Position numbers and translations under genes: made by a program. Shown piece after piece: positions 24 through 17,448 of a stretch of DNA of 37,589 nt. Every line of letters starts with the position of its first letter. Position 1 is the first letter of the stretch. This stretch comes from Chthoniobacteraceae bacterium (GTDB lineage: Bacteria > Verrucomicrobiota > Verrucomicrobiia > Chthoniobacterales > Chthoniobacteraceae): assembly GCA_947476045.1 (NCBI GenBank), contig CANJNZ010000044.1, forward strand, positions 1-37,589, read 5' to 3'. Under the pieces are notes generated by a model that had not been told where the DNA came from, did no database searches, and was given only the letters and a program-made list of their open reading frames with translations.

Positions 24-3000
24 ATGGGCCGGCATCGTCCACGGAGCCACTCCGAAATTCAAATGCGTGACATCCATTTTCATGCGCAACTCACGCAAAC
101 TTCGCTGCTAACAAAACACCGACCGCGCATCAACCGGACACCCGTGACTTTTTCCAATAAATTGCCGATCTATCAAGGCGGTCCATCCAATGGCTTTTTT
201 GGTGCGCTCAATCTGGTTGTGAGCGGCGGCACCAATGGCACATCCAACAAGATAGGCTTCACAGGCCAACCAACCGGCACCTACATGAGCAGGGCGGTCT
301 ATTTTGGCGGAAACGATTATGCCTATTACGATGCGGGTGGCTACGTCCGCGGCATCGACTACGGGAACGATGCCAATACCGCCACTACCGCAGGGGGAGC
401 CAGTGTCGCCAGCACGACCAACCTGAATGTCACAGGGAATATCACGGCCCAGGCGGACGGAACGAGTTTCAGCACAATCCGGCTCAACGGCTCGTCCAAC
501 TTCACTCTGGCTACCAGCGCAACCGTATCTGCTCGCAACGTGATTGACGGAGGCTTCGGCATTCTCAAGACAGGCGGTGGCACTTCCACGATCAGCGGAG
601 GCACCCTGTTGATGCCCAACGGCTACTATCAGAACGTTTCTGACGACGGAACTGCGAGCCTAGTCATCCGCGCAGATGGAACTGGGGATAATCTGATCAT
701 CAACACGAATCTGCTCAGCAGAACCTCCGCCACGGGAGCCCCGTCAGGCCTAACGGCGTGGGCCAACGCATTTCAAACGTGGGGCGCTGGCAGCGTGACC
801 CTGAATGGGAACAACACCATCAGTGGGGGAACTACCATCAATGGTGGAGGCACGCTGACACTGACTGCGCAAAACTACTTTGGAACTGCGGGTGGGTCAG
901 GGGAAATCGCCATCGGCAACTATTCCGCTGGCAACACGCTCAACATCACAGGCAGGGGCAAACTGGCCACCGGCAATGGTGGGACCGCCAACCTGAACAT
1001 TGGTCAGGGACTCTTCGGGAATAATGCACTGAATATTTCCGTGCCAGGGACTCCTGGCACCCCGACGATACGTGCTGGCACGAATAGCATGGGAAATACA
1101 ACTAGTGGCAACAGCATCAAGGTTTCCAACGGTTCGTATTTTGGGGAAAACGGGGGCGGCCTTAACATCGGCCTATCAGCCGGAGGCGACAGCAACAGCC
1201 TGACAATTACAGGCTCCAGCAGCCGGGTCCAACTCGATTTCAACAATGGCACGAGCCTCACTCTAGGCAGCATTGGCAGCAACAACACTGCAGTGGTTGA
1301 CAAGGGCGCTGTATTGCGAGTGTCCCGGTATTCTTCGGGTGGAGGCGGTGGAAGCAACAACTCACTTCTGGTAACCGGAGTGGGCACCGTATTCGCTTTC
1401 GCCGGGTCGCAAACCGGCCTGGCCATCGGATCCAGCGGCGGTTCTGGTAACTACGTGAGCGTCGAAAATGGGGCCATTCTGAATGGAGTCGGCGGCTCCC
1501 GCGGAGGCGAAGTGATGTCGATTGGATTCGGCGCCAATGCCAATAACAATTACCTCCGGGTCACGGGCACTGGGTCGCTAGTGAACCTCGCCTATTCCCC
1601 AGCGCCGTTTACAGTCAGTGGCGATGACGGTGTGAGTGTCGCTTCAAGTGGGAACCATATCGACGTATATAGTGGCGGTTTCCTCAACATGGTCCCGACC
1701 AGCGTCAGCACTTCCCTGTATGTGATGGGCACCAACTCGGCGCTCAATCTGGGCAACGGCACGGCCATCAGCACAATCAAGACGGGGGCAAGCACAGGTT
1801 TCACTGCGGGAATCGTAGTGTCTGACGCGTCGGATGCGGTGAACATCAACAGCGGTCGAATCATCGCGGGCGCGGCCGGTTCGCTCATTTCCGGTTCCGG
1901 CGGGGTAGTTCTCAACGGGCCAGCCTATATTTCCACGACTCAAACCAATTCCGCCATCTCGAGCGTGATCAGCGGCGGCAGTTCCAATAACCTGATCAAG
2001 GAAGGCACCGGGACGCTCATCCTATCGGCGGCAAACACCTACACGGGGGCGACCATTGTCGGCAACGGCACACTGGCCCTCGATTACACTGTCGTGGGCA
2101 GCAAGCTGGCCGATACCAGCACGCTGACATTGGGCGGCGGCACGCTGAACCTCACCAACGGGGCCAGTGCCCACACCGAAATTGTCGCCTCGACTGCGCT
2201 GAATGCGGGCCGCAGCGGTGTCACCCGCACCAGCGGCACCTCGGTCCTTAGCATGGGTGCGATCACGCCCGGGGTCGGTATCGTGAATTTCGGAGCGGGC
2301 TCCATCGCCACAACGAGCAGCACCAACGACGGGTCGGACAACAGTGGTATCCTCGGGCCGTGGGCTAGCGTGGCCGGCACCGGCTGGGCGGCCAATGACG
2401 GAAGCGGGAACATCGTGGCATGGACTGGCACTTATACCCAGGACACCGCTGGTGCGATCGCCGGTGTCGGCACCAACAATGTGAAAATGCTCAATGGAAC
2501 TGGCGCTTACTCCATCGCGGCGGCCACAACGATCAATACCCTGCTCAATACCGATGCAGCACCCTCCACTCTGGCCCTTGGCGGGAACAATCTAAACACC
2601 GGTGGCATCATGACCGCCACGGGAGCAGGAAGCCTGACCATTAACACCACTGGAGGCACCTTGAGCGCAGCCACTGCTGGCGCCAATCTGGTAATCAACG
2701 CCAACTCGGCGATAACGATAAATCCCGCTATCGTTGCCAACGGTTCGTCCGGCCTCGCTACGGCGGGCACGGTGACGCTCAATGGTGTGAACACCTATAC
2801 TGGGTCCACCGGCGTGGGAGGCACTTTGACCATCGGCGGTTCGGGCCAGCTCAACAGCGGTAGTTACGCAGGAGCGATCTCGATTGCAGCCGGCGGCGCT
2901 TTGGTGATGAACAGCTCTGCCAGCAATGTGCTCAGCGGAGTGGTCACTGGAGACGGTGCTATCACACAGTCCGGTGTCGGCACCACGACCCTGAGCAATG

Positions 3001-5351
3001 CTAACACCTACACCGGTGCGACCGTCGTCAACGCGGGCATTCTGAAAGCGGGTAACGCAACCGCGTTTGGCGGAGCCGCTACTGCTTCTCTGGTCTTTGG
3101 GGCTAGCAGCAGCGGGAAAGTCCAGTTGAATGGCAACGACATTTCCCTAGTGGGACTGAACACCAATGCCACCGTGGGCACACCGATCATTGAGAGCGGA
3201 TCCAGCACGCCCGGCACGGATACGCTTACCGTCTTAAGCCTGCGCGATACGACTAATCCTCACTCTGCTACTTCGGGAACTATTGGCTTGGTCAGCTATG
3301 TGAACAACACCTACAGCGGTATCTTGCAGGACGGCGGCACCCGCAAGCTTGCGCTGGTCAAGAACGGTGTCGGCACACTCACCCTCGGTGGAACAAACAC
3401 TTACTCCGGCGGCACCGTCATCAACGGCGGGACGATCGCCGTCGCCAACCAGGCGTGCTTCGGCAGCGGGACGGTTACGTTAAACAGCGGCACCGTTTTC
3501 CAGCAGACGAACTTCGTAACCAATGACGGCAGCACGAGTGCTGGAGCGATCACCAATCCGATTATTCTGGGCAGCGGCGACGCGGATAGCACCGGGGAAG
3601 TAAAGATCGTCCTCGGCACCTCTTCAAAGCCCATCTGGCTGAACGGAGGTATCTCGGGTGATGGACGGTTCCGGCTCGTCATGGATGCCACTACTGGCGG
3701 CAATACCGGTATACTGACCCTGAGCGGAGCCAACACTTTCACTGGGGGTATTATCCAAACTGCCAGCTCATTCAATCCAGGCTCGAATAACGTCAATAAC
3801 ATTTATCCTTCGGTGCAAATTGATAATGTCGCGTCCCTTGGCACAGGAATGTTCCGTGCGCAAATTAACAATGGCGTAGTGAATACCGGCGCAGGCTTCC
3901 TGAGGTCGATTGCCGATCTATCCGCCGGTGTCGCCAATGCGTTCGACATTACCGCCGGCGCACGGCTAGTTGTGGATGGCACCTCTCCAAATCACATTAA
4001 TCTGACGGGCGTGGTTTCCGGAGGTGGCAATCTGGTGAAGACTGGAACAAACACGCTGACGCTCGGCGGCGCCAACAACTTCAGCGGCACAACCACGGTA
4101 AACGCTAGCGGCGGCACGTTGCAATTTGCGAAGAGAGGTTCGCTTTATAACGCCATCACGGCGAGCTGGAACAAGACGAAAATGACCGTGGGAAGCGGCA
4201 GCACGCTGGCGTTCAATGTGGGCGGCTCAGGGGAGTTTGATACGACCGATGTAACCACGTTGCTCACCGGCCTAACGGGAGCGCTCACCAGTAACGGTAT
4301 GCTGGCTGGTTCGACCATCGGCTTTGATACCACCAACGCTTCCGGAGGGACATTCACCGTCGCAGACGCAATTGTGAATACGACTGGCACTGGCGGCGGC
4401 ACATTGGGCCTTATCAAGAAAGGCACAGGCACACTCATTCTATCGAACACAAACAGCTATACCGGCGCAACCACGATCAGCGGGGGAACACTGCAACTTG
4501 GCGACGGAAGCACCACGGGTTCGATTTCTTCAACCAGCACACTGACGAACAATGGCACCCTCGCCATCAACCGCTCCAACACTGCCACACAGGGCACGGA
4601 CTTTGGCCTGATCAGCGGCGGCACAGGTGGATTCACCCAAGTCGGAAGCGGCACCACCATCCTCGGTCTAGCCAACACCTATAACGGGGCAACGACCGTG
4701 AACGCGGGCACTTTGAACATCACCGGCAGCATTACAGGAAGCGCGACAACTGTGAACGCGGGCATCTTGAATGTGAGCGGTGCAATCAATAATGGCACGA
4801 CGCTTCTGACTGGAGGCACGTTAAATGTGTCGGGTTCAATCTCCGGCACAACAACCTTGAACGGCGGCACTTTCACCGTCGCCGACAATGTCATTTTAGG
4901 AGCTTTGGTCGTCAATGGCGTGACTTTATCTCCGGCTGGCAATGCAACCGGCGCGCTGAGCACCGGCACACTGTCATTCAACGCTGGCAGCACCTTTCAA
5001 TTTCAAATCGACTCTACGACGCCTGCGCTCGACTTGATCAGTATCACTGGGAATCTGAATATCGCGGCTGGAGCGGTGATGAATGTCAGCGATTTAGGAG
5101 CGACGGTATTGAATGAGGGTCTGTCGACTCCGATCATGACCTACAGCGGTGGCTGGTTTGGCACAGCGTTTGATGGAAGGCCTGACGACAGCATCTTCAC
5201 AATCGGGCTGAACACGTATCAAATTTCCTACAATGGTGTGGATGGAAATACAAAAGAGGTCACATTGACCGTGGTGCCTGAGCCCGGAGTGGCGGTATCC
5301 CTGCTCGGTGGCCTCGGCCTGCTCCTCGGCGTGCGCCGTCGCAGGGCTTGA
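24..5351 (+). CDS. Autotransporter-associated beta-strand-repeat protein with PEP-CTERM anchor; 5' end possibly damaged
   Basis: Predicted very large surface or secreted protein (1775 aa from the ATG at 24). Most of it is Gly/Thr/Ser/Asn-rich beta-solenoid sequence with recurring autotransporter-associated units of the form GTGTLxLSxxNTYTGxTxVxxGTL, visible near residues 660-690, 930-950, 985-1005, 1120-1140, 1230-1245, 1340-1360, 1470-1490 and 1550-1570. The C-terminus is a PEP-CTERM sorting signal: VPEP, a hydrophobic stretch, then an RRRR cluster, which in known systems is processed by an exosortase. The N-terminus is odd. It has no hydrophobic signal peptide, and the first ~50 residues are basic and unlike the family, whereas from about residue 50 the sequence resembles the interior of such proteins. 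An in-frame TAG at 9-11 prevents simple upstream extension. The 5' part may therefore be lost or frameshifted. The C-terminal assignment is firm; the start is not. Confidence 0.85.
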   Translation: MGRHRPRSHSEIQMRDIHFHAQLTQTSLLTKHRPRINRTPVTFSNKLPIYQGGPSNGFFGALNLVVSGGTNGTSNKIGFTGQPTGTYMSRAVYFGGNDYAYYDAGGYVRGIDYGNDANTATTAGGASVASTTNLNVTGNITAQADGTSFSTIRLNGSSNFTLATSATVSARNVIDGGFGILKTGGGTSTISGGTLLMPNGYYQNVSDDGTASLVIRADGTGDNLIINTNLLSRTSATGAPSGLTAWANAFQTWGAGSVTLNGNNTISGGTTINGGGTLTLTAQNYFGTAGGSGEIAIGNYSAGNTLNITGRGKLATGNGGTANLNIGQGLFGNNALNISVPGTPGTPTIRAGTNSMGNTTSGNSIKVSNGSYFGENGGGLNIGLSAGGDSNSLTITGSSSRVQLDFNNGTSLTLGSIGSNNTAVVDKGAVLRVSRYSSGGGGGSNNSLLVTGVGTVFAFAGSQTGLAIGSSGGSGNYVSVENGAILNGVGGSRGGEVMSIGFGANANNNYLRVTGTGSLVNLAYSPAPFTVSGDDGVSVASSGNHIDVYSGGFLNMVPTSVSTSLYVMGTNSALNLGNGTAISTIKTGASTGFTAGIVVSDASDAVNINSGRIIAGAAGSLISGSGGVVLNGPAYISTTQTNSAISSVISGGSSNNLIKEGTGTLILSAANTYTGATIVGNGTLALDYTVVGSKLADTSTLTLGGGTLNLTNGASAHTEIVASTALNAGRSGVTRTSGTSVLSMGAITPGVGIVNFGAGSIATTSSTNDGSDNSGILGPWASVAGTGWAANDGSGNIVAWTGTYTQDTAGAIAGVGTNNVKMLNGTGAYSIAAATTINTLLNTDAAPSTLALGGNNLNTGGIMTATGAGSLTINTTGGTLSAATAGANLVINANSAITINPAIVANGSSGLATAGTVTLNGVNTYTGSTGVGGTLTIGGSGQLNSGSYAGAISIAAGGALVMNSSASNVLSGVVTGDGAITQSGVGTTTLSNANTYTGATVVNAGILKAGNATAFGGAATASLVFGASSSGKVQLNGNDISLVGLNTNATVGTPIIESGSSTPGTDTLTVLSLRDTTNPHSATSGTIGLVSYVNNTYSGILQDGGTRKLALVKNGVGTLTLGGTNTYSGGTVINGGTIAVANQACFGSGTVTLNSGTVFQQTNFVTNDGSTSAGAITNPIILGSGDADSTGEVKIVLGTSSKPIWLNGGISGDGRFRLVMDATTGGNTGILTLSGANTFTGGIIQTASSFNPGSNNVNNIYPSVQIDNVASLGTGMFRAQINNGVVNTGAGFLRSIADLSAGVANAFDITAGARLVVDGTSPNHINLTGVVSGGGNLVKTGTNTLTLGGANNFSGTTTVNASGGTLQFAKRGSLYNAITASWNKTKMTVGSGSTLAFNVGGSGEFDTTDVTTLLTGLTGALTSNGMLAGSTIGFDTTNASGGTFTVADAIVNTTGTGGGTLGLIKKGTGTLILSNTNSYTGATTISGGTLQLGDGSTTGSISSTSTLTNNGTLAINRSNTATQGTDFGLISGGTGGFTQVGSGTTILGLANTYNGATTVNAGTLNITGSITGSATTVNAGILNVSGAINNGTTLLTGGTLNVSGSISGTTTLNGGTFTVADNVILGALVVNGVTLSPAGNATGALSTGTLSFNAGSTFQFQIDSTTPALDLISITGNLNIAAGAVMNVSDLGATVLNEGLSTPIMTYSGGWFGTAFDGRPDDSIFTIGLNTYQISYNGVDGNTKEVTLTVVPEPGVAVSLLGGLGLLLGVRRRRA

Positions 5352-7573: not shown

Positions 7574-8551
7574 ATGAAATACACACTACCCGCCCTCATC
7601 GCCTGCGTCCTCGGACTGTTCACTTCCTGTGACAAGCCCGCCGCCACCTCCGATTCAAAAACACCCGAGAGCAAAGCCAAAGGCACCATCGGTGTCTCGC
7701 TCGTCACGCTCGATAATCCTTTCTTCAAGGTGATCGGCGACAACATCACGGCGGAGGGAAAGAAACACGGCTACGAAACCGTCGTCCTCAGTTGCGACAA
7801 TGACCCGGCCATCCAGGGCAATCAGGTGAAGGATTTCATCGTGAAAAAAGTCCGGGCGATTGTGCTGAGTCCGCGTAATTCCAAGGCGATCATCCCGGTG
7901 ATTCAGGAGGCCAATGCAGCGGGCATCCCGGTTTTCACCGTGGACATTCCGTGCAATGAGCCCGGTGTGAAAATCGTGACGCAGGTGGCGACGGATAATT
8001 TCGCCGGAGGCAAGGAGGCGGGGAAGGCGATGATCGAGGCGCTCGGCGAGGCGGGCGGGAAAATCGGCATCCTCAGTGTGAAAGGTTCGGAGGCTTGCGA
8101 GTTGCGTGTGAAAGGATTCCGGGAGGTGATTGACGGACACAATGCGAGCAGCAAGGCGAAGATTGAAATCATGTCGGAGCTGCCCTGCGGCGGTGGCGCG
8201 AAGGACGCGGGCTACAAATCCATGGAGGATATGTTGCAGGCACATTCGGATTTGCGCGGCCTTTTCGCGATCAATGATCCGGCTGCGCTCGGCGCACGCG
8301 CTGCGTTGGAAAAAGCGGGCAAGGCGGAGCAGGTCGTTATCGTGGGATTCGACGGCCAGCCGGAGGGCAAGCAGGCGATCAAGGAGGGGAAAATTTACGC
8401 CGACCCGATCCAGTTTCCGGCGCTCATGGGCGTCAAAATTGTGGATTCCATCGTGCGCCACTCGAAGGGCGAGACGCTGCCGCCGCAGATGCTCATTCCC
8501 ACCAGCCTCTATCGCAAGGCCGACGGTCTGAAGGATCCGGAGCTCAAGTAG
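7574..8551 (+). CDS. Sugar ABC transporter substrate-binding lipoprotein (RbsB/FrcB-like)
   Basis: 325 aa. Signal peptide with a lipobox-like FTSC (Cys19), a Ser/Thr/Lys linker, then a type 1 periplasmic-binding-protein fold starting at GTIGVSLVTLDNPFFKVIGD. Family hallmarks include the first-lobe strand-helix pattern, DNDPAIQGNQVKDFI, the AIVLSPRNSKAIIPVI stretch, AGIPVFTVD and, in the second lobe, GLFAINDPAALGARAALEKAG and VVIVGFDGQPEG. These belong to the ribose/fructose/inositol class of binding proteins, which deliver a monosaccharide or polyol to a CUT2-type importer. The ligand cannot be read from sequence. ATPase and permease genes of the same class follow downstream, separated by aroE-like DNA. 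The ATG at 7574 follows the upstream stop by 29 nt. Confidence 0.9.
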   Translation: MKYTLPALIACVLGLFTSCDKPAATSDSKTPESKAKGTIGVSLVTLDNPFFKVIGDNITAEGKKHGYETVVLSCDNDPAIQGNQVKDFIVKKVRAIVLSPRNSKAIIPVIQEANAAGIPVFTVDIPCNEPGVKIVTQVATDNFAGGKEAGKAMIEALGEAGGKIGILSVKGSEACELRVKGFREVIDGHNASSKAKIEIMSELPCGGGAKDAGYKSMEDMLQAHSDLRGLFAINDPAALGARAALEKAGKAEQVVIVGFDGQPEGKQAIKEGKIYADPIQFPALMGVKIVDSIVRHSKGETLPPQMLIPTSLYRKADGLKDPELK

Positions 8552-8567
8552 CCGCCTGCGCTGACAC

Positions 8568-9419
8568 ATGAGCGAAGGAAAATTTCTCCACGAGCTGACC
8601 GGCTCGATGTCACAGGGCGCGGCGGGCAATCCCACCGTGGCGATGATCGAGGCTGCGTTCGCACACCACGGTCTGCACTGGCGTTACATCAATATGGAAG
8701 TAACGCCCGAGGATCTCGGTGCTGCTGTGCGTGGTGCGAAGGCGATGGGCTTTCGCGGTTTCAATTGCAGCCTGCCACACAAGGTCACGGTGATTCCTCA
8801 TCTCGACGGACTCGGCGAATCCGCCGCAGTGATGGGCGCGGTGAATTGCGTCGTGAGACGCGGCGAGAAATTCATCGGTGAGAATACCGACGGCAAAGGC
8901 TTTTTGAAGTCGCTCGCATCGCTCGTTGATCCGAAAGGGAAGTCCGTCGTGCTTTTCGGCGCTGGCGGCGCGGCGCGCGCCATCGCGGTGGAACTCGGTC
9001 TCGCCGGTGTGAAGCGCATCATCATTGTGAATCGTTCCGAGGCGCGCGGTGCGGAACTCGTGGCGTTGCTGCGCGACAAACTGAAACTCGATGCACAACT
9101 CGTCGTGTGGCGCGGCGACTACTCAGTGCCCGCTGGAACGGACATCGTGATCAACGGCACTTCGATTGGTCTTTACGCACCCGACGAACGACTCGCGCTC
9201 GACTTGAACTCGCTCAAGCCCGGCATGGTCGTGGCGGATGTCGTTTTCAATCCCGTCCGCACGCGCCTGCTCGAAGATGCCGCTGCACGAGGCTGCCGCG
9301 CGCTCGACGGACTCGGGATGCTCGTGAATCAGGGCATTGTCGGTGTGCAATACTGGACGGGCATCGAGCCGAACGCCGTGGTGATGCGAAAAGCCCTCGA
9401 AACCGCGATGGGTGTATGA
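8568..9419 (+). CDS. Shikimate dehydrogenase family protein (AroE-like)
   Basis: 283 aa, normal AroE length. Family motifs appear in order: a divergent substrate loop near residue 13 (GSMSQGAAGNP), NCSLPHK with the catalytic Lys72, ENTDGKG with the catalytic Asp108, the Rossmann motif GAGGAA at 131-136, VNRS after the second strand, NGTSIGL, ADVVFNPVRTRLL and GLGMLVNQG. These fit NAD(P)H-dependent reduction of 3-dehydroshikimate or a related polyol acid. The substrate loop and NCSLPHK differ from the usual SxS and NVTxPHK, so the enzyme may be a YdiB- or quinate-like variant. It lies between the sugar-binding-protein gene and its ATPase, and its stop overlaps the ATPase start (ATGA at 9416). 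That placement suggests a catabolic substrate, while the aroA/tyrA locus elsewhere does not contain it. Confidence 0.85.
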   Translation: MSEGKFLHELTGSMSQGAAGNPTVAMIEAAFAHHGLHWRYINMEVTPEDLGAAVRGAKAMGFRGFNCSLPHKVTVIPHLDGLGESAAVMGAVNCVVRRGEKFIGENTDGKGFLKSLASLVDPKGKSVVLFGAGGAARAIAVELGLAGVKRIIIVNRSEARGAELVALLRDKLKLDAQLVVWRGDYSVPAGTDIVINGTSIGLYAPDERLALDLNSLKPGMVVADVVFNPVRTRLLEDAAARGCRALDGLGMLVNQGIVGVQYWTGIEPNAVVMRKALETAMGV

Positions 9420-10906
9420 GCGAGACCGCGCCGCTCCTCGAGATGCGGGGAATTGTGAAATCATTTCCCGGCGTGCAGGCGTTGCGCGGAGTGGACCTCG
9501 GCCTTCACACTGGCGAAGTGCTCGCTCTGCTTGGTGAAAATGGCGCGGGCAAGAGCACGTTGATCAAAGTGCTCGGCGGCGCGCATCGAGCGGATGAAGG
9601 GACAATCCAGATTGACGGACGCGAGACGCCGTTTCATTCGCCACAGGATTCGCGGCGCGCGGGAGTGGCCGTGATTTACCAGGAGTTCAACCTCGTCCCC
9701 GGACTCACGGCGGTGGAGAATATCTTCCTCGGGCAGGAGGTGACGCGCGCCGGATTCATTGCGCAGAAACAGGAACGCCAGCGGGCAGCCGAAATTTTCA
9801 AGCGGCTCGGCGTGGAGATGGATCTCGATGCGCCATGCCGCTTGCTCACTACCGCGCAGCAGCAGCTCGTCGAAATCGCGAAGGCGCTCGCCTTTGATGC
9901 GCGCATCATCGTGATGGACGAGCCGAGCGCCGCGCTCACCTCGCACGAAGTCGGGCGATTGTTTGAGATCATCCGCGACCTCAAGCGGCAGGGAATCGGC
10001 ATCATCTACATCAGCCACCGGCTCGAAGAAGTTTTTACCATCGCAGACCGCGTGACGGTGCTGCGCGACGGGCGCAACGTGGGCGAACGACCCATCGCGC
10101 AGATCACGCGAGACCAGATGATCGAGATGATGGTCGGGCGGGAATTGAAGGACGAATTTCCAGCGCGTCAGTCGTCCATCGGCGCTGTGCGGCTGGAGGT
10201 CAGCGGTTTGAAAAGGGGACGCGCGGTGCGCGATGTTACCTTCACTGTGCGCCGTGGAGAAATCCTCGCGCTCACCGGCCTCGTCGGCGCGGGGCGCACG
10301 GAAACGGTGCGACTCATCTTTGGTGCCGACCCGCGCGAAGCCGGGGAAGTCCGACTCGATGGAAAGCTCCTCGCACTCCGCTCGCCGCGCGATGCGATTT
10401 CCGCAGGCATCGGTTTGCTGACGGAGGATCGCAAGTTGCAGGGACTCGTGCTCGGCCACTCGGTGCGTGAAAATTTTGGTCTGCCAAATCTCACGTGGCT
10501 CTCGCGTGGAGGCTTCGTGGATATCCGCCGCGAGCGCGAGGAATTTGGCCGCTATGTGGAGCAATTGAAAATCAAAGTGCCGGGCCAGGAGCAGCGCGCC
10601 GGGAATCTTTCCGGCGGCAATCAGCAGAAGGTCGTGCTGGCGAAATGGCTCGCGCGAAATTGCGACGTTTTGATTTTCGACGAGCCGACGCGTGGTATTG
10701 ATGTCGGCGCGAAATATGAAATTTACCTGCTGATGAACGAACTCGCCGCCGCCGGGAAGGCCATCATCATGATCAGTTCCGAACTCCCCGAAGTGCTCGG
10801 CATGGCCGACCGCATCCTCGTCATGCACGATGGTCGAGTGACCGGAGAAATCGCCGACGCGCGCTGCGCGACGCAGGAGGAAGTCATGCAACTCGCCGTG
10901 GCCTGA
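9416..10906 (+). CDS. Sugar ABC transporter ATP-binding protein, two ABC domains (RbsA/FrcA-like)
   Basis: 496 aa from the ATG overlapping the upstream stop; a longer in-frame extension to 9107 is only the shadow of the aroE-like gene. It is a tandem-domain CUT2 ATPase. Domain 1 has Walker A GENGAGKST (residues 40-48), Q-loop YQEFNLVP, a degenerate signature TTAQQQLVEIAKAL, and Walker B IIVMDEPSAALT. Domain 2 has a degenerate Walker A (TGLVGAGRTE), a canonical signature LSGGNQQKVVLAKWL (near 398-412) and Walker B VLIFDEPTRGIDVG. One degenerate and one canonical half is typical of RbsA/MglA/XylG proteins. It energises the permease encoded 4 nt downstream. Confidence 0.95.
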   Translation: MSETAPLLEMRGIVKSFPGVQALRGVDLGLHTGEVLALLGENGAGKSTLIKVLGGAHRADEGTIQIDGRETPFHSPQDSRRAGVAVIYQEFNLVPGLTAVENIFLGQEVTRAGFIAQKQERQRAAEIFKRLGVEMDLDAPCRLLTTAQQQLVEIAKALAFDARIIVMDEPSAALTSHEVGRLFEIIRDLKRQGIGIIYISHRLEEVFTIADRVTVLRDGRNVGERPIAQITRDQMIEMMVGRELKDEFPARQSSIGAVRLEVSGLKRGRAVRDVTFTVRRGEILALTGLVGAGRTETVRLIFGADPREAGEVRLDGKLLALRSPRDAISAGIGLLTEDRKLQGLVLGHSVRENFGLPNLTWLSRGGFVDIRREREEFGRYVEQLKIKVPGQEQRAGNLSGGNQQKVVLAKWLARNCDVLIFDEPTRGIDVGAKYEIYLLMNELAAAGKAIIMISSELPEVLGMADRILVMHDGRVTGEIADARCATQEEVMQLAVA

Positions 10907-13882: not shown

Positions 13883-14470
13883 ATCCCGCCTGTTTCGGGA
13901 TGAATACCGCGCGCATCGGGAGCCATCCCTTTTGAAAAGGTAGCCCTACCTTTTCCCCGGCTGGCCCTACCTTTTCAAAAGGTAACGATACCTTTTCCGC
14001 GGCTGGCCCTACCTTTCCGAAAGGTAGCGATACCTTTTCCACGGCTAGCCCTACCTTTCCGAAAGGTAACGATACCTTTTCCGCGACTAGCCCTACCTTT
14101 TCAAAAGGTAGCGATACCTTTTCCGCCGCTGGCCCTACCTTTTCGAAAGGTAACAATACCTTTGCCCGGGGTAGCCCTACCTTTTCTGCGGCTGGCCATA
14201 CCTTTTCAAAAGGTAACGATACCTTTCCCCAGAGTAGCGATACCTTTTGCTGGAAGGACGATACCTTTTCCCAGAGTGACGATACCTTTTCCCGGAGTGA
14301 CGATACCTTTTCCCGGAGTGACGATACCTTTTCCCGGAGTGACGATACCTTTCCTCGGAGTGACGATACCTTTTCCCAGAGTGACGATACCATTTCCCGG
14401 AAGGACGATACCTTTTCGCGCGGGATTGCCACCTTTCCTCAGAGAAGGCCCTGTTCCTACAGAGAGCCGC
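13883..14470. repeat. 21-bp tandem repeat array, about 28 units, fixed phase
   Basis: Consecutive 21-nt units begin ATACCTTTT or CTACCTTTT. About 25 are clear (13925-14449), and degenerate units at 13883, 13904 and 14450 stay in the same register; no unit is longer or shorter than 21. In the left half, two unit types mostly alternate, giving a 42-nt super-unit: one contains an inverted repeat (CTACCTTTT/AAAAGGTAG or a variant) and the other ends in GGCTGGCC or GGCTAGCC. The right half is simpler, with units ending CCCGGAGTGACG. Because 21 = 7 codons, several frames stay open. The minus-strand frame (14432 down to 13620, GTG start) encodes heptads such as EKVSSLR and EKVSLPF; coding status is doubtful. 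Confidence 0.9.
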
Positions 14471-14748: not shown

Positions 14749-17448
14749 ATGCCCAACACACCACCATTCAGGGATAGGGAATCGGATGATGAAGTAGAGA
14801 ATGAACCCACACCGATGCGTTTAGCGCGAGCAAGGATCGAGAAGGCGCGGCGCGAAGGTGAGCGGGAAGTCTTTTTGGCCAGCTTTGGGCTCACGACACT
14901 TCCGGAGGAACTTTGGGAAATACCAGACCTACATACGCTTGATCTAGGAAACAACCTACTCACGAGCGTGCCGGAGGCGCTGGGTCAACTTACCGGACTA
15001 AAAACGCTTTACCTTCAGGACAACAAGATCAGGAACGTGCCAGAAGCACTAGGCAAGCTCACCGCGCTGCAACTGCTTGATCTTTCTATGAACCAACTTA
15101 CGAGCCTGCCAGAGGCACTGGGAAAATTGAAGGAATTGCGAATGCTTTACCTCCACGACAACCAACTCACGAAAGTGCCGGAGGCGCTGGGGCAATTAAA
15201 TGCGCTGCGAGAGCTTCATATTCAAGCCAACCAACTCACAAGCGTGCCGGACGCACTGGGACAGTTAATGGCGCTGCAAGAGCTTTATCTCTTCAATAAT
15301 CAGATCACTAGCGTGCCGGAGACGCTGGGCAAACTGACCAATCTGCGAGAGCTTTGGCTTCAAGATAACCAGCTTGCGATGCTGCCGGAGGCGCTGACCA
15401 AGCTTTGCAAAGAGGGTAGGCTCGAACGCCTTTTCCTCAACGGCAATCCGGCACTAAACCTGCCTGTGGTGCTGCTGGGGCCGACGTGGCTTGAGGCTAA
15501 CGAGAAAAATCCCCCGGCGAAACCCGCAGATATCCTCGACTACTACTTTTCGATCTGCGGCTCAGCGGGACAGGCACTGCGGGAGGTGAAGCTGATCCTC
15601 TTCGGGCGCGGGGAGGTGGGTAAGAGCTCGATGGTGGATGTGTTGCGTGGGAGGGAGTTCGTGGAGAAGCGGGCACGGACGGACGGGGTGGCAATCACAC
15701 CATGGGACGTGGAGTTGGCGGACGGGAAGGCGAAGGTCCTGCTGTGGGATTTCGGCGGACAGGAGATCATGCACGGCACACACCAGTTCTTCCTCACGCA
15801 CCGGAGCCTCTACGTGGTGATAGTGGACGGACGGCACGACCGCGCGAAGCAGGATGCGGAATACTGGCTGAAGCTGGTGCGGGCCTTTGGCGGGGAGTCG
15901 CCGGTGATGGTGGTGATGAACCGGCAGAAGGAATATCCCTTTGCAATAGATATCCAGTATTTGGCGGACAAATATGGAGTGAAGCTGGATCATTTCTTCC
16001 GCACGGACTGTGAGCGTCCGAATGATATCGCACCGCTACGCGAGGCGATTTTGGAGGAAGTGGCGCGGATGCTCGCGACGGAAGAGCGGTTTCCCAAGAA
16101 CCGATGGGAAGTGAAGACGCGGCTCGAAAAGATGAAGGAGGAAAAAGAGGACTATCTTTCCGAGGAACGCTACGCGCAGATTTGCGATGAATATGGTGTG
16201 AAGGGCGAGGAGGAGCAGGGCAAGTTGCTGCGTCGGCTCGCGGATCTCGGCACGGTGGTAAGCTTCCCGGATGACGGGAAGCTGGCGGAGTTCTCCGTGC
16301 TAAACCCGGAGTGGGCGACAGACGGCATCTACCGCGTGGTGACGAATGAGTCGCTGCGCGAGGAGAAGCATGGCCAGCTCCGCTGCGCCTCACTCCGCGA
16401 CCTGCTACCGAAGGATCGATGGCCGAAGCCGAAGCATCTCCAATACATCGTGGAACTGATGAAGAAGTTCGAGCTGTGCTTCCCCGTGGATGACTGCGAA
16501 GTCGCCGTGCTCGTGCCGGAACTACTGCCGGATAAGACGCCGCCGCTGGCAGACTGGGACGCGGCGCAATGCGTGGTCTTTCACTACAAATATACGGTGC
16601 TGCCGCACGGCGTGCTGCCACGATTCATCACGCGCACCCACGAGTTGAGCCAAGGCCGCGAACGCTGGCGCACAGGCGTTGTGCTGGCCGATGACGGCGC
16701 GGAGGCGCTGGTGAAGGCGGACTACGATGCAAACTTCGTGAGCGTGTGGGTGCGCGGGCCGCACGCGGATGGAAGGCGTGCTTTGCTGAAGGTGGTGCGG
16801 CATCACTTTGAACACATCCATGCGCGCATCAAGGAACTGAAGCCGGAAGAATTGGTAGCAGTGCCAAACTATCCAGAAGTTTTGGTTTCCTACTTGGATC
16901 TAGTGCTGGATGAAAGAGCCGGGGAGGTGAGAACACGAGTCACTATTGCCGGCGAACGTGTTGAACGTCAGATCACCGAGCTTCTCAATGGGGTTGAGAC
17001 CCGAGCCGAACGGGAAAAGAGGATGCTTGAAAGGGAGGAACCCCTCTGGAAGAAGGATATCATGAGTCTGCACATAGACAAAAGCATCCACATACATGGT
17101 GACGTGACTAACTCGCAGATCGGCCAGACGCTGACGAACTGCACGAACATGATCCAGCAGCAGGCACCGGGGGAGAAGAAGGACTTGCTCGAACAACTGC
17201 AAAGCGAAGTGAAGGCGCTCATCGAGGTGCTACCGGGTGAAAAGAAGGAGGAAGCGGCGGGCGACCTTGAGCAGTTGGTGAAAGGCGCGACGGCCACAAC
17301 CCCGAACCGGCGCTGGTATTCGGTTTCAGCCGAAGGACTGATGGAGGCGTCGAAGTTTGTGAAGGACTTCACCGGGAACATCGTGGGGACAGTGGGCACA
17401 CTCGGAAAGCTGCTGTGGCCGGATTTCAGCCTGCCCGACGAGAAATAG
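14749..17448 (+). CDS. Roco protein: leucine-rich repeats, Roc GTPase, COR, unassigned C-terminal module
   Basis: 899 aa. After a charged N-terminus, 23-residue leucine-rich repeats run from ~46 to ~240 (LxxLDLxxNxLTSVPEALGxL). The Roc GTPase follows at ~278-440: Walker A GRGEVGKSS (286-294), switch II DFGGQE (334-339), and NRQK (391-394) where NKxD is usual, so the guanine-specificity motif is altered. COR spans ~460-690, with a winged-helix-like segment and a dimerisation part. Residues ~690-760 hold a helical linker; then SIHIHGDVTNSQIGQTLTN (a short beta-turn repeat) and a helical tail (~800-899). Roco GTPases cycle as dimers and signal through attached domains, but the partner here is unknown. 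It stands alone, flanked by repeats and a convergent DUF151 gene 36 nt away. It probably acts in the cytoplasm, as it lacks any signal or TM segment. Confidence 0.93.
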   Translation: MPNTPPFRDRESDDEVENEPTPMRLARARIEKARREGEREVFLASFGLTTLPEELWEIPDLHTLDLGNNLLTSVPEALGQLTGLKTLYLQDNKIRNVPEALGKLTALQLLDLSMNQLTSLPEALGKLKELRMLYLHDNQLTKVPEALGQLNALRELHIQANQLTSVPDALGQLMALQELYLFNNQITSVPETLGKLTNLRELWLQDNQLAMLPEALTKLCKEGRLERLFLNGNPALNLPVVLLGPTWLEANEKNPPAKPADILDYYFSICGSAGQALREVKLILFGRGEVGKSSMVDVLRGREFVEKRARTDGVAITPWDVELADGKAKVLLWDFGGQEIMHGTHQFFLTHRSLYVVIVDGRHDRAKQDAEYWLKLVRAFGGESPVMVVMNRQKEYPFAIDIQYLADKYGVKLDHFFRTDCERPNDIAPLREAILEEVARMLATEERFPKNRWEVKTRLEKMKEEKEDYLSEERYAQICDEYGVKGEEEQGKLLRRLADLGTVVSFPDDGKLAEFSVLNPEWATDGIYRVVTNESLREEKHGQLRCASLRDLLPKDRWPKPKHLQYIVELMKKFELCFPVDDCEVAVLVPELLPDKTPPLADWDAAQCVVFHYKYTVLPHGVLPRFITRTHELSQGRERWRTGVVLADDGAEALVKADYDANFVSVWVRGPHADGRRALLKVVRHHFEHIHARIKELKPEELVAVPNYPEVLVSYLDLVLDERAGEVRTRVTIAGERVERQITELLNGVETRAEREKRMLEREEPLWKKDIMSLHIDKSIHIHGDVTNSQIGQTLTNCTNMIQQQAPGEKKDLLEQLQSEVKALIEVLPGEKKEEAAGDLEQLVKGATATTPNRRWYSVSAEGLMEASKFVKDFTGNIVGTVGTLGKLLWPDFSLPDEK

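Follow-up and report, generated by a model that had tools for sequence, protein, structure and literature searches.

Bacterial proteins in which leucine-rich repeats (LRRs), a Roc-type AP-GTPase, and a COR domain are followed by a variable tail have already been described. In Kaur and colleagues (2021; PMC8195603), such LRR-AP-GTPase-COR proteins carry at least 24 C-terminal domains (including TIR, GT4, caspase, and EADs) and are predicted to counter invaders through a rapidly changing output domain at the C terminus. For the core of the protein studied here, the closest solved relatives are the Chlorobium tepidum Roco structures (CtRoco; 6hlu and 8r4b). A comparison of working principle only is offered by the Rpn gene-within-gene toxin-antitoxins: in these PD-(D/E)XK nucleases, which are unrelated in sequence to Rocos, a small helical C-terminal oligomerization domain is translated separately and binds the full-length anti-phage protein (PMC10327210).

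The window, a 37,589-nucleotide stretch of DNA from a Chthoniobacteraceae bacterium (contig C44 of a 4.4-Mb genome), contains the single Roco gene of that genome (Table 1). The initial annotation had proposed an LRR-Roc-COR architecture with an altered G4 motif, and our analysis bears out both points. Pfam places all four core domains well above its cut-off (LRR at residues ~40–240, Roc at 281–392, and both COR domains), and Roc is followed by COR-A and COR-B, the arrangement by which the Roco family is recognized. The G1 (GRGEVGKS) and G3 (DFGGQ) motifs of the Roc domain are intact in the alignment. From the LRRs through COR-B, the protein aligns with CtRoco; the best-stretch alignments end at residue 757 (6hlu) or 818 (8r4b), leaving most of the helical module uncovered. 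The N-to-C order is that of the counter-invader proteins, and the window family likewise combines LRR, Roc, and COR with an exchangeable C-terminal domain, TIR being among its outputs. Compared with those proteins, the window protein differs in having a DUF4404-related tail with no Pfam match, NRQK at G4, and a single Roco in its genome.

Table 1. Coordinates (window numbering) of the Roco gene and its parts.
Feature	Position	Strand	Evidence
Complete Roco gene, LRR-Roc-CORA-CORB-C module	14749..17448	+	899-aa ORF; Pfam
Leucine-rich repeats, residues ~40–235, putative sensor	14866..15453	+	Pfam LRR_4/LRR_8; AF2 model
Roc GTPase-like domain, residues ~278–400	15580..15948	+	Pfam Roc E 6.5e-22; alignment
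Altered G4 motif NRQK replacing NKxD, residues 391–394	15919..15930	+	Alignments; family comparison
COR-A domain, residues 449–593	16093..16527	+	Pfam E 1.9e-32
COR-B domain, residues 608–748	16570..16992	+	Pfam E 6e-28
Candidate internal start: AAGGA (17053–17057), ATG at 17062 (Met772)	17053..17064	+	Met position common to most homologues; weak in this copy
Exchangeable C-terminal module, residues 772–899: GD-turn strand-like motif and DUF4404-related five-helix domain	17062..17445	+	
IHIHGDVTNSQIGQ motif, residues 780–793	17086..17127	+	Sequence; alignment

Homologues were collected by protein and profile searches, the collection scans using a profile from a closer alignment, and their Roc-COR regions fall into clades A (with the window gene), B (Roco-TIR), C, and D. 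Most come from metagenome-assembled genomes (MAGs), and for L048 (Rhodoferax) and L051 (Lentisphaera) the organism labels may stem from wrongly binned contigs. The nearest named relative, L046, is from a Verrucomicrobiota MAG of the same order; its gene is cut off where the contig ends, and the N-terminal repeats are missing.

The canonical guanine motif NKxD, which is usual in the Roco family without defining it, is absent from the window protein. NRQK directly follows the strand at residues 386–391, the place of G4, and aligns with the NKID of CtRoco; no alternative [NT][KR]xD was found within residues 270–450. Since all four clade-A sequences (window, L046, L051, and L054) have NRQK, it is not a sequencing error, and the change is real and fixed. 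Related clades have NRQD, NKAD, NKCD, or NKWN. A shifted reading as NRQ-KE, with the glutamate as the acidic residue, was rejected: the family alignments show NKxDE, and therefore the aspartate itself has been replaced. Because variation at G4-G5 has already been recorded in Rocos (PMC6337361), the motif alone establishes no new principle. Genome G085 carries an additional, strongly divergent Roco (L035, 9809–13051), in which THGG occupies the G4 position and the tail is another one.

At the C terminus, an extra module made of a short beta repeat and a helical domain had been annotated at about residues 780–899. The module and its helical domain are real; the beta repeat is not borne out by the models. 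AlphaFold2 models built with ten homologues show five helices (pLDDT about 87 across residues 789–890) behind a disordered lead-in, with the first helix beginning near residue 789 and IHIHGDVTNSQIGQ modeled as low-confidence coil rather than strands. Relatives carry longer GD-turn strings at this place (VQGDYIKGDKP..IHIGGDVTNSQ). Searches of the 128-aa module (residues 772–899) against Pfam, NCBIfam, and PADLOC returned nothing beyond chance: the PADLOC matches (E 0.009–0.024) were at chance level, and Pfam matches to Trypan_glycop/PAP1 (E 0.007–0.06) lay below the cut-off. With the modeled module as query, Foldseek found nothing in PDB or BFVD at E 0.001 or better. VIA matches to talin R13, THATCH, MLKL, and Rx-CC were taken to be common helical-bundle arrangements.

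A genome search with the module profile matched a free-standing protein assigned by Pfam to DUF4404 (PF14357). Against a profile of 18 DUF4404 proteins, the module scored 39.0 in hhalign (E 4e-6), compared with 14.9 for the reversed profile, while shuffled profiles reached no more than 17.2, and the two families find each other in reciprocal HMM searches. Since the score exceeds these controls, the five-helix domain is, on profile comparison, a remote relative of DUF4404 by common ancestry, lying outside Pfam's own cut-off: the PF14357 model did not match the window module in a scan at E up to 10, and among the matches listed no module member reaches that model. Both are helical domains of the same order, but the module lacks the FExSHP motif, and the DUF4404 proteins found here are short and stand alone. 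In the literature searched, we found no mention of DUF4404 and no experimental work on bacterial Rocos bearing this tail.

The module has moved between Roco backbones. Each Roc-COR clade is monophyletic with 100/100 support, on a long stem, and the clades are 25%–33% identical to one another in Roc-COR; their modules are 52%–62% identical. The module tree recovers the clades in 0/200 bootstrap trees. Slow evolution does not explain this, since within clades the module (mean identity 60%) is less conserved than Roc-COR (71%) and is therefore not the slower-evolving part. Vertical descent at such rates does not give the contrast; the module has been passed between, or repeatedly captured by, Roco backbones. 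On this short alignment, no single AU test rejected monophyly of the modules by clade (p 0.06–0.21), and the identity contrast stands independently of them. Two older versions (L028 and L069) are about 25%–34% identical to other copies in both parts. Near the start of the module (~17110–17160), the codons for NSQVGQTLTNC are unusually alike across clades (Gly is GGC in 12/13), which could reflect recent exchange or an RNA-level signal.

What occupies the tail position varies in kind. In L031 and L034, strongly hydrophobic transmembrane segments replace the module on Roc-COR backbones 57%–73% identical to module-bearing clade C. C-terminal TIR domains are present in L029 and L030 by Pfam, and TIR-like C-terminal sequence in L032 and L033. 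In clade B, TIR and the module co-occur in the order Roco-TIR-module (L026 by Pfam, L048 and L052 by sequence). Further copies stand behind an AAA_14 ATPase (L070) and behind an unassigned 480-aa protein on a Nitrosomonas plasmid (L045). In the latter gene, the 3′ end and downstream sequence are duplicated just downstream (8488–8622), so that the last third of the module is doubled.

From these observations we propose, with a probability of roughly 45%, that the window gene encodes an NLR-like Roco switch whose DUF4404-related tail most likely serves as an assembly or adaptor module triggering a cell-autonomous, probably anti-invader response. In this scheme, the LRRs would sense a ligand, and the Roc-COR core would shift conformation with the bound nucleotide and pass the change to the C-terminal output position, which in the window gene is filled by the small DUF4404-related helical module. 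The module may then oligomerize with its own copies or with TIR-bearing partners, and this assembly would trigger the response. The initial annotation had read the tail as that of a conflict-type protein and had taken a solitary Roco gene beside a repeat array as a sign of a defense module. The first idea holds in part: the module extends beyond orthologous Rocos, being found in four Roc-COR clades, behind AAA_14, in the plasmid protein, and in separate ORFs, and the architecture matches that of the counter-invader proteins (PMC8195603); a genomic link to defense did not emerge here. The second idea found no support at this locus, given the housekeeping neighbors, the lack of PADLOC matches among ten neighbors tested at related loci, and an array that resembles a minisatellite with copies elsewhere in the genome. 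What carries the defense reading is thus the architecture, the patchy distribution, and the swapping of tails, and not the gene neighborhood. The module was found in 4/213 genomes of the order, 4/387 of the phylum sample, and 3/294 sampled Planctomycetota; it was absent from 348 other Pseudomonadota genomes sampled, and a search of viral contigs and phage records gave no match. Against the proposed scheme stand the lack of defense genes beside this locus and among the ten neighbors tested at related loci, the single Roco of the window's genome, and the fact that no module homologue has a known function, DUF4404 itself being uncharacterized.

The genes around the window Roco serve housekeeping or the cell surface (shikimate dehydrogenase, SpoU methylase, bifunctional nuclease, HPr kinase, EPSP synthase, and others), with no defense genes found adjoining the locus. 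Among ten neighbors at related loci, there were no PADLOC matches; the genes are similar, with one IS110 transposase. Association with defense genes, which the published counter-invader description does not require, was thus not seen at the loci tested, and the sole defense-like context is that of the distant plasmid homologue L045, which lies near methyltransferase and TnsA-type genes. At L044, an IS110-family transposase (8852–9910) adjoins a module-bearing Roco. The window also encodes a 1775-aa autotransporter-like surface protein with passenger-associated-transport repeats (PATR; 24–5351). Upstream of the Roco gene lie ~23 copies of a 21-bp unit (13921–14417); the genome has stretches resembling it on three further contigs (C3, C70, and C12), and the array looks like a dispersed minisatellite outside the Roco system.

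An unlikely alternative is that the module is also translated by itself from Met772 and that the free module would bind and restrain or tune the full-length Roco, much as RpnS does with RpnL (PMC10327210). Met or GTG stands at the head of the module in 16/18 aligned copies, some of them only 25%–31% identical, the start codon being absent in L044 and L052. In 10/11 loci that have a Gly codon within 8 codons upstream of this Met, the last such codon is the GGAG-like GGA, which makes up 6%–32% of Gly codons in the genes tested; the enrichment (P 2e-7) comes from a test designed after the pattern had been seen and from related sequences. The sole exception is L052, which likewise has no start codon. 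Pairing with the anti-Shine-Dalgarno sequence is stronger before the module Met than before other in-frame ATGs (−5.5 versus −3.0 kcal/mol, p 0.001). When the seven upstream codons were resampled synonymously, however, the Shine-Dalgarno signal did not reach significance (p 0.06–0.18), and another Gly column of the module is also codon-conserved (GGC in 12/13). In L046, L042, and L054 no clear Shine-Dalgarno sequence is present, and the window copy has no upstream Gly, with a modest AAGGA four bases from the ATG (p 0.29).

Separate module genes lend this alternative further support. In L053, from a Gemmataceae MAG, the TGA stop of a Roco-TIR gene and the ATG of a module gene of 154 residues overlap as ATGA (7929–7932). 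As this comes from a single MAG assembly, a frameshift error is possible; the exact ATGA junction has the look of a real gene border. Another free-standing module ORF in that genome, of up to 186 aa, lies close to the end of a short contig on which no Roco is visible. A second module copy that could act as a partner in trans was not found in 11/12 module-bearing genomes tested; G589 has two. Taken together, these data hint at internal initiation at the module Met, which is a live hypothesis. A broader version, in which an NLR-like Roco would carry its own regulator as an inner gene, the module acting both as tail and as a free assembly-controlling protein, with NRQK no longer selecting guanine in the standard way, seems to us improbable.

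It is likewise doubtful that the protein is an ordinary signaling Roco with no role in conflict, its tail scaffolding a housekeeping partner. Such a role would suit the housekeeping neighbors, the lack of PADLOC matches, and the solitary gene, but patchy distribution, swapping of TIR tails, and cross-clade module exchange would be unusual for a housekeeping gene. We consider it quite improbable that the module acts as the effector in its own right, as a membrane-damaging helical bundle standing in for the transmembrane or TIR tails of sister proteins: it does share its position with transmembrane tails on backbones 57%–73% identical in Roc-COR, distant copies have a hydrophobic last helix (KD 1.45–2.03), and its helical-bundle matches include MLKL (Z 5.7) and Rx-CC (Z 5.1), but such scores fall inside the range quoted as noise for helical bundles, that helix lacks strong hydrophobicity in the window copy (0.84), and the TIR domain that accompanies the module in clade B would make a second effector redundant.

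The human Parkinson protein LRRK2 is a cousin of this immune-sensor-like protein, and the family presented here shows clearly an output module that has jumped between LRRK2-like switches of bacteria. It also ties an uncharacterized helical family, DUF4404, to NLR-like proteins, and the fixed NRQK opens nucleotide specificity within the Roco family to direct testing. Should the internal start prove real, Rocos would join the few defense-type genes that encode their own regulator inside their reading frame.
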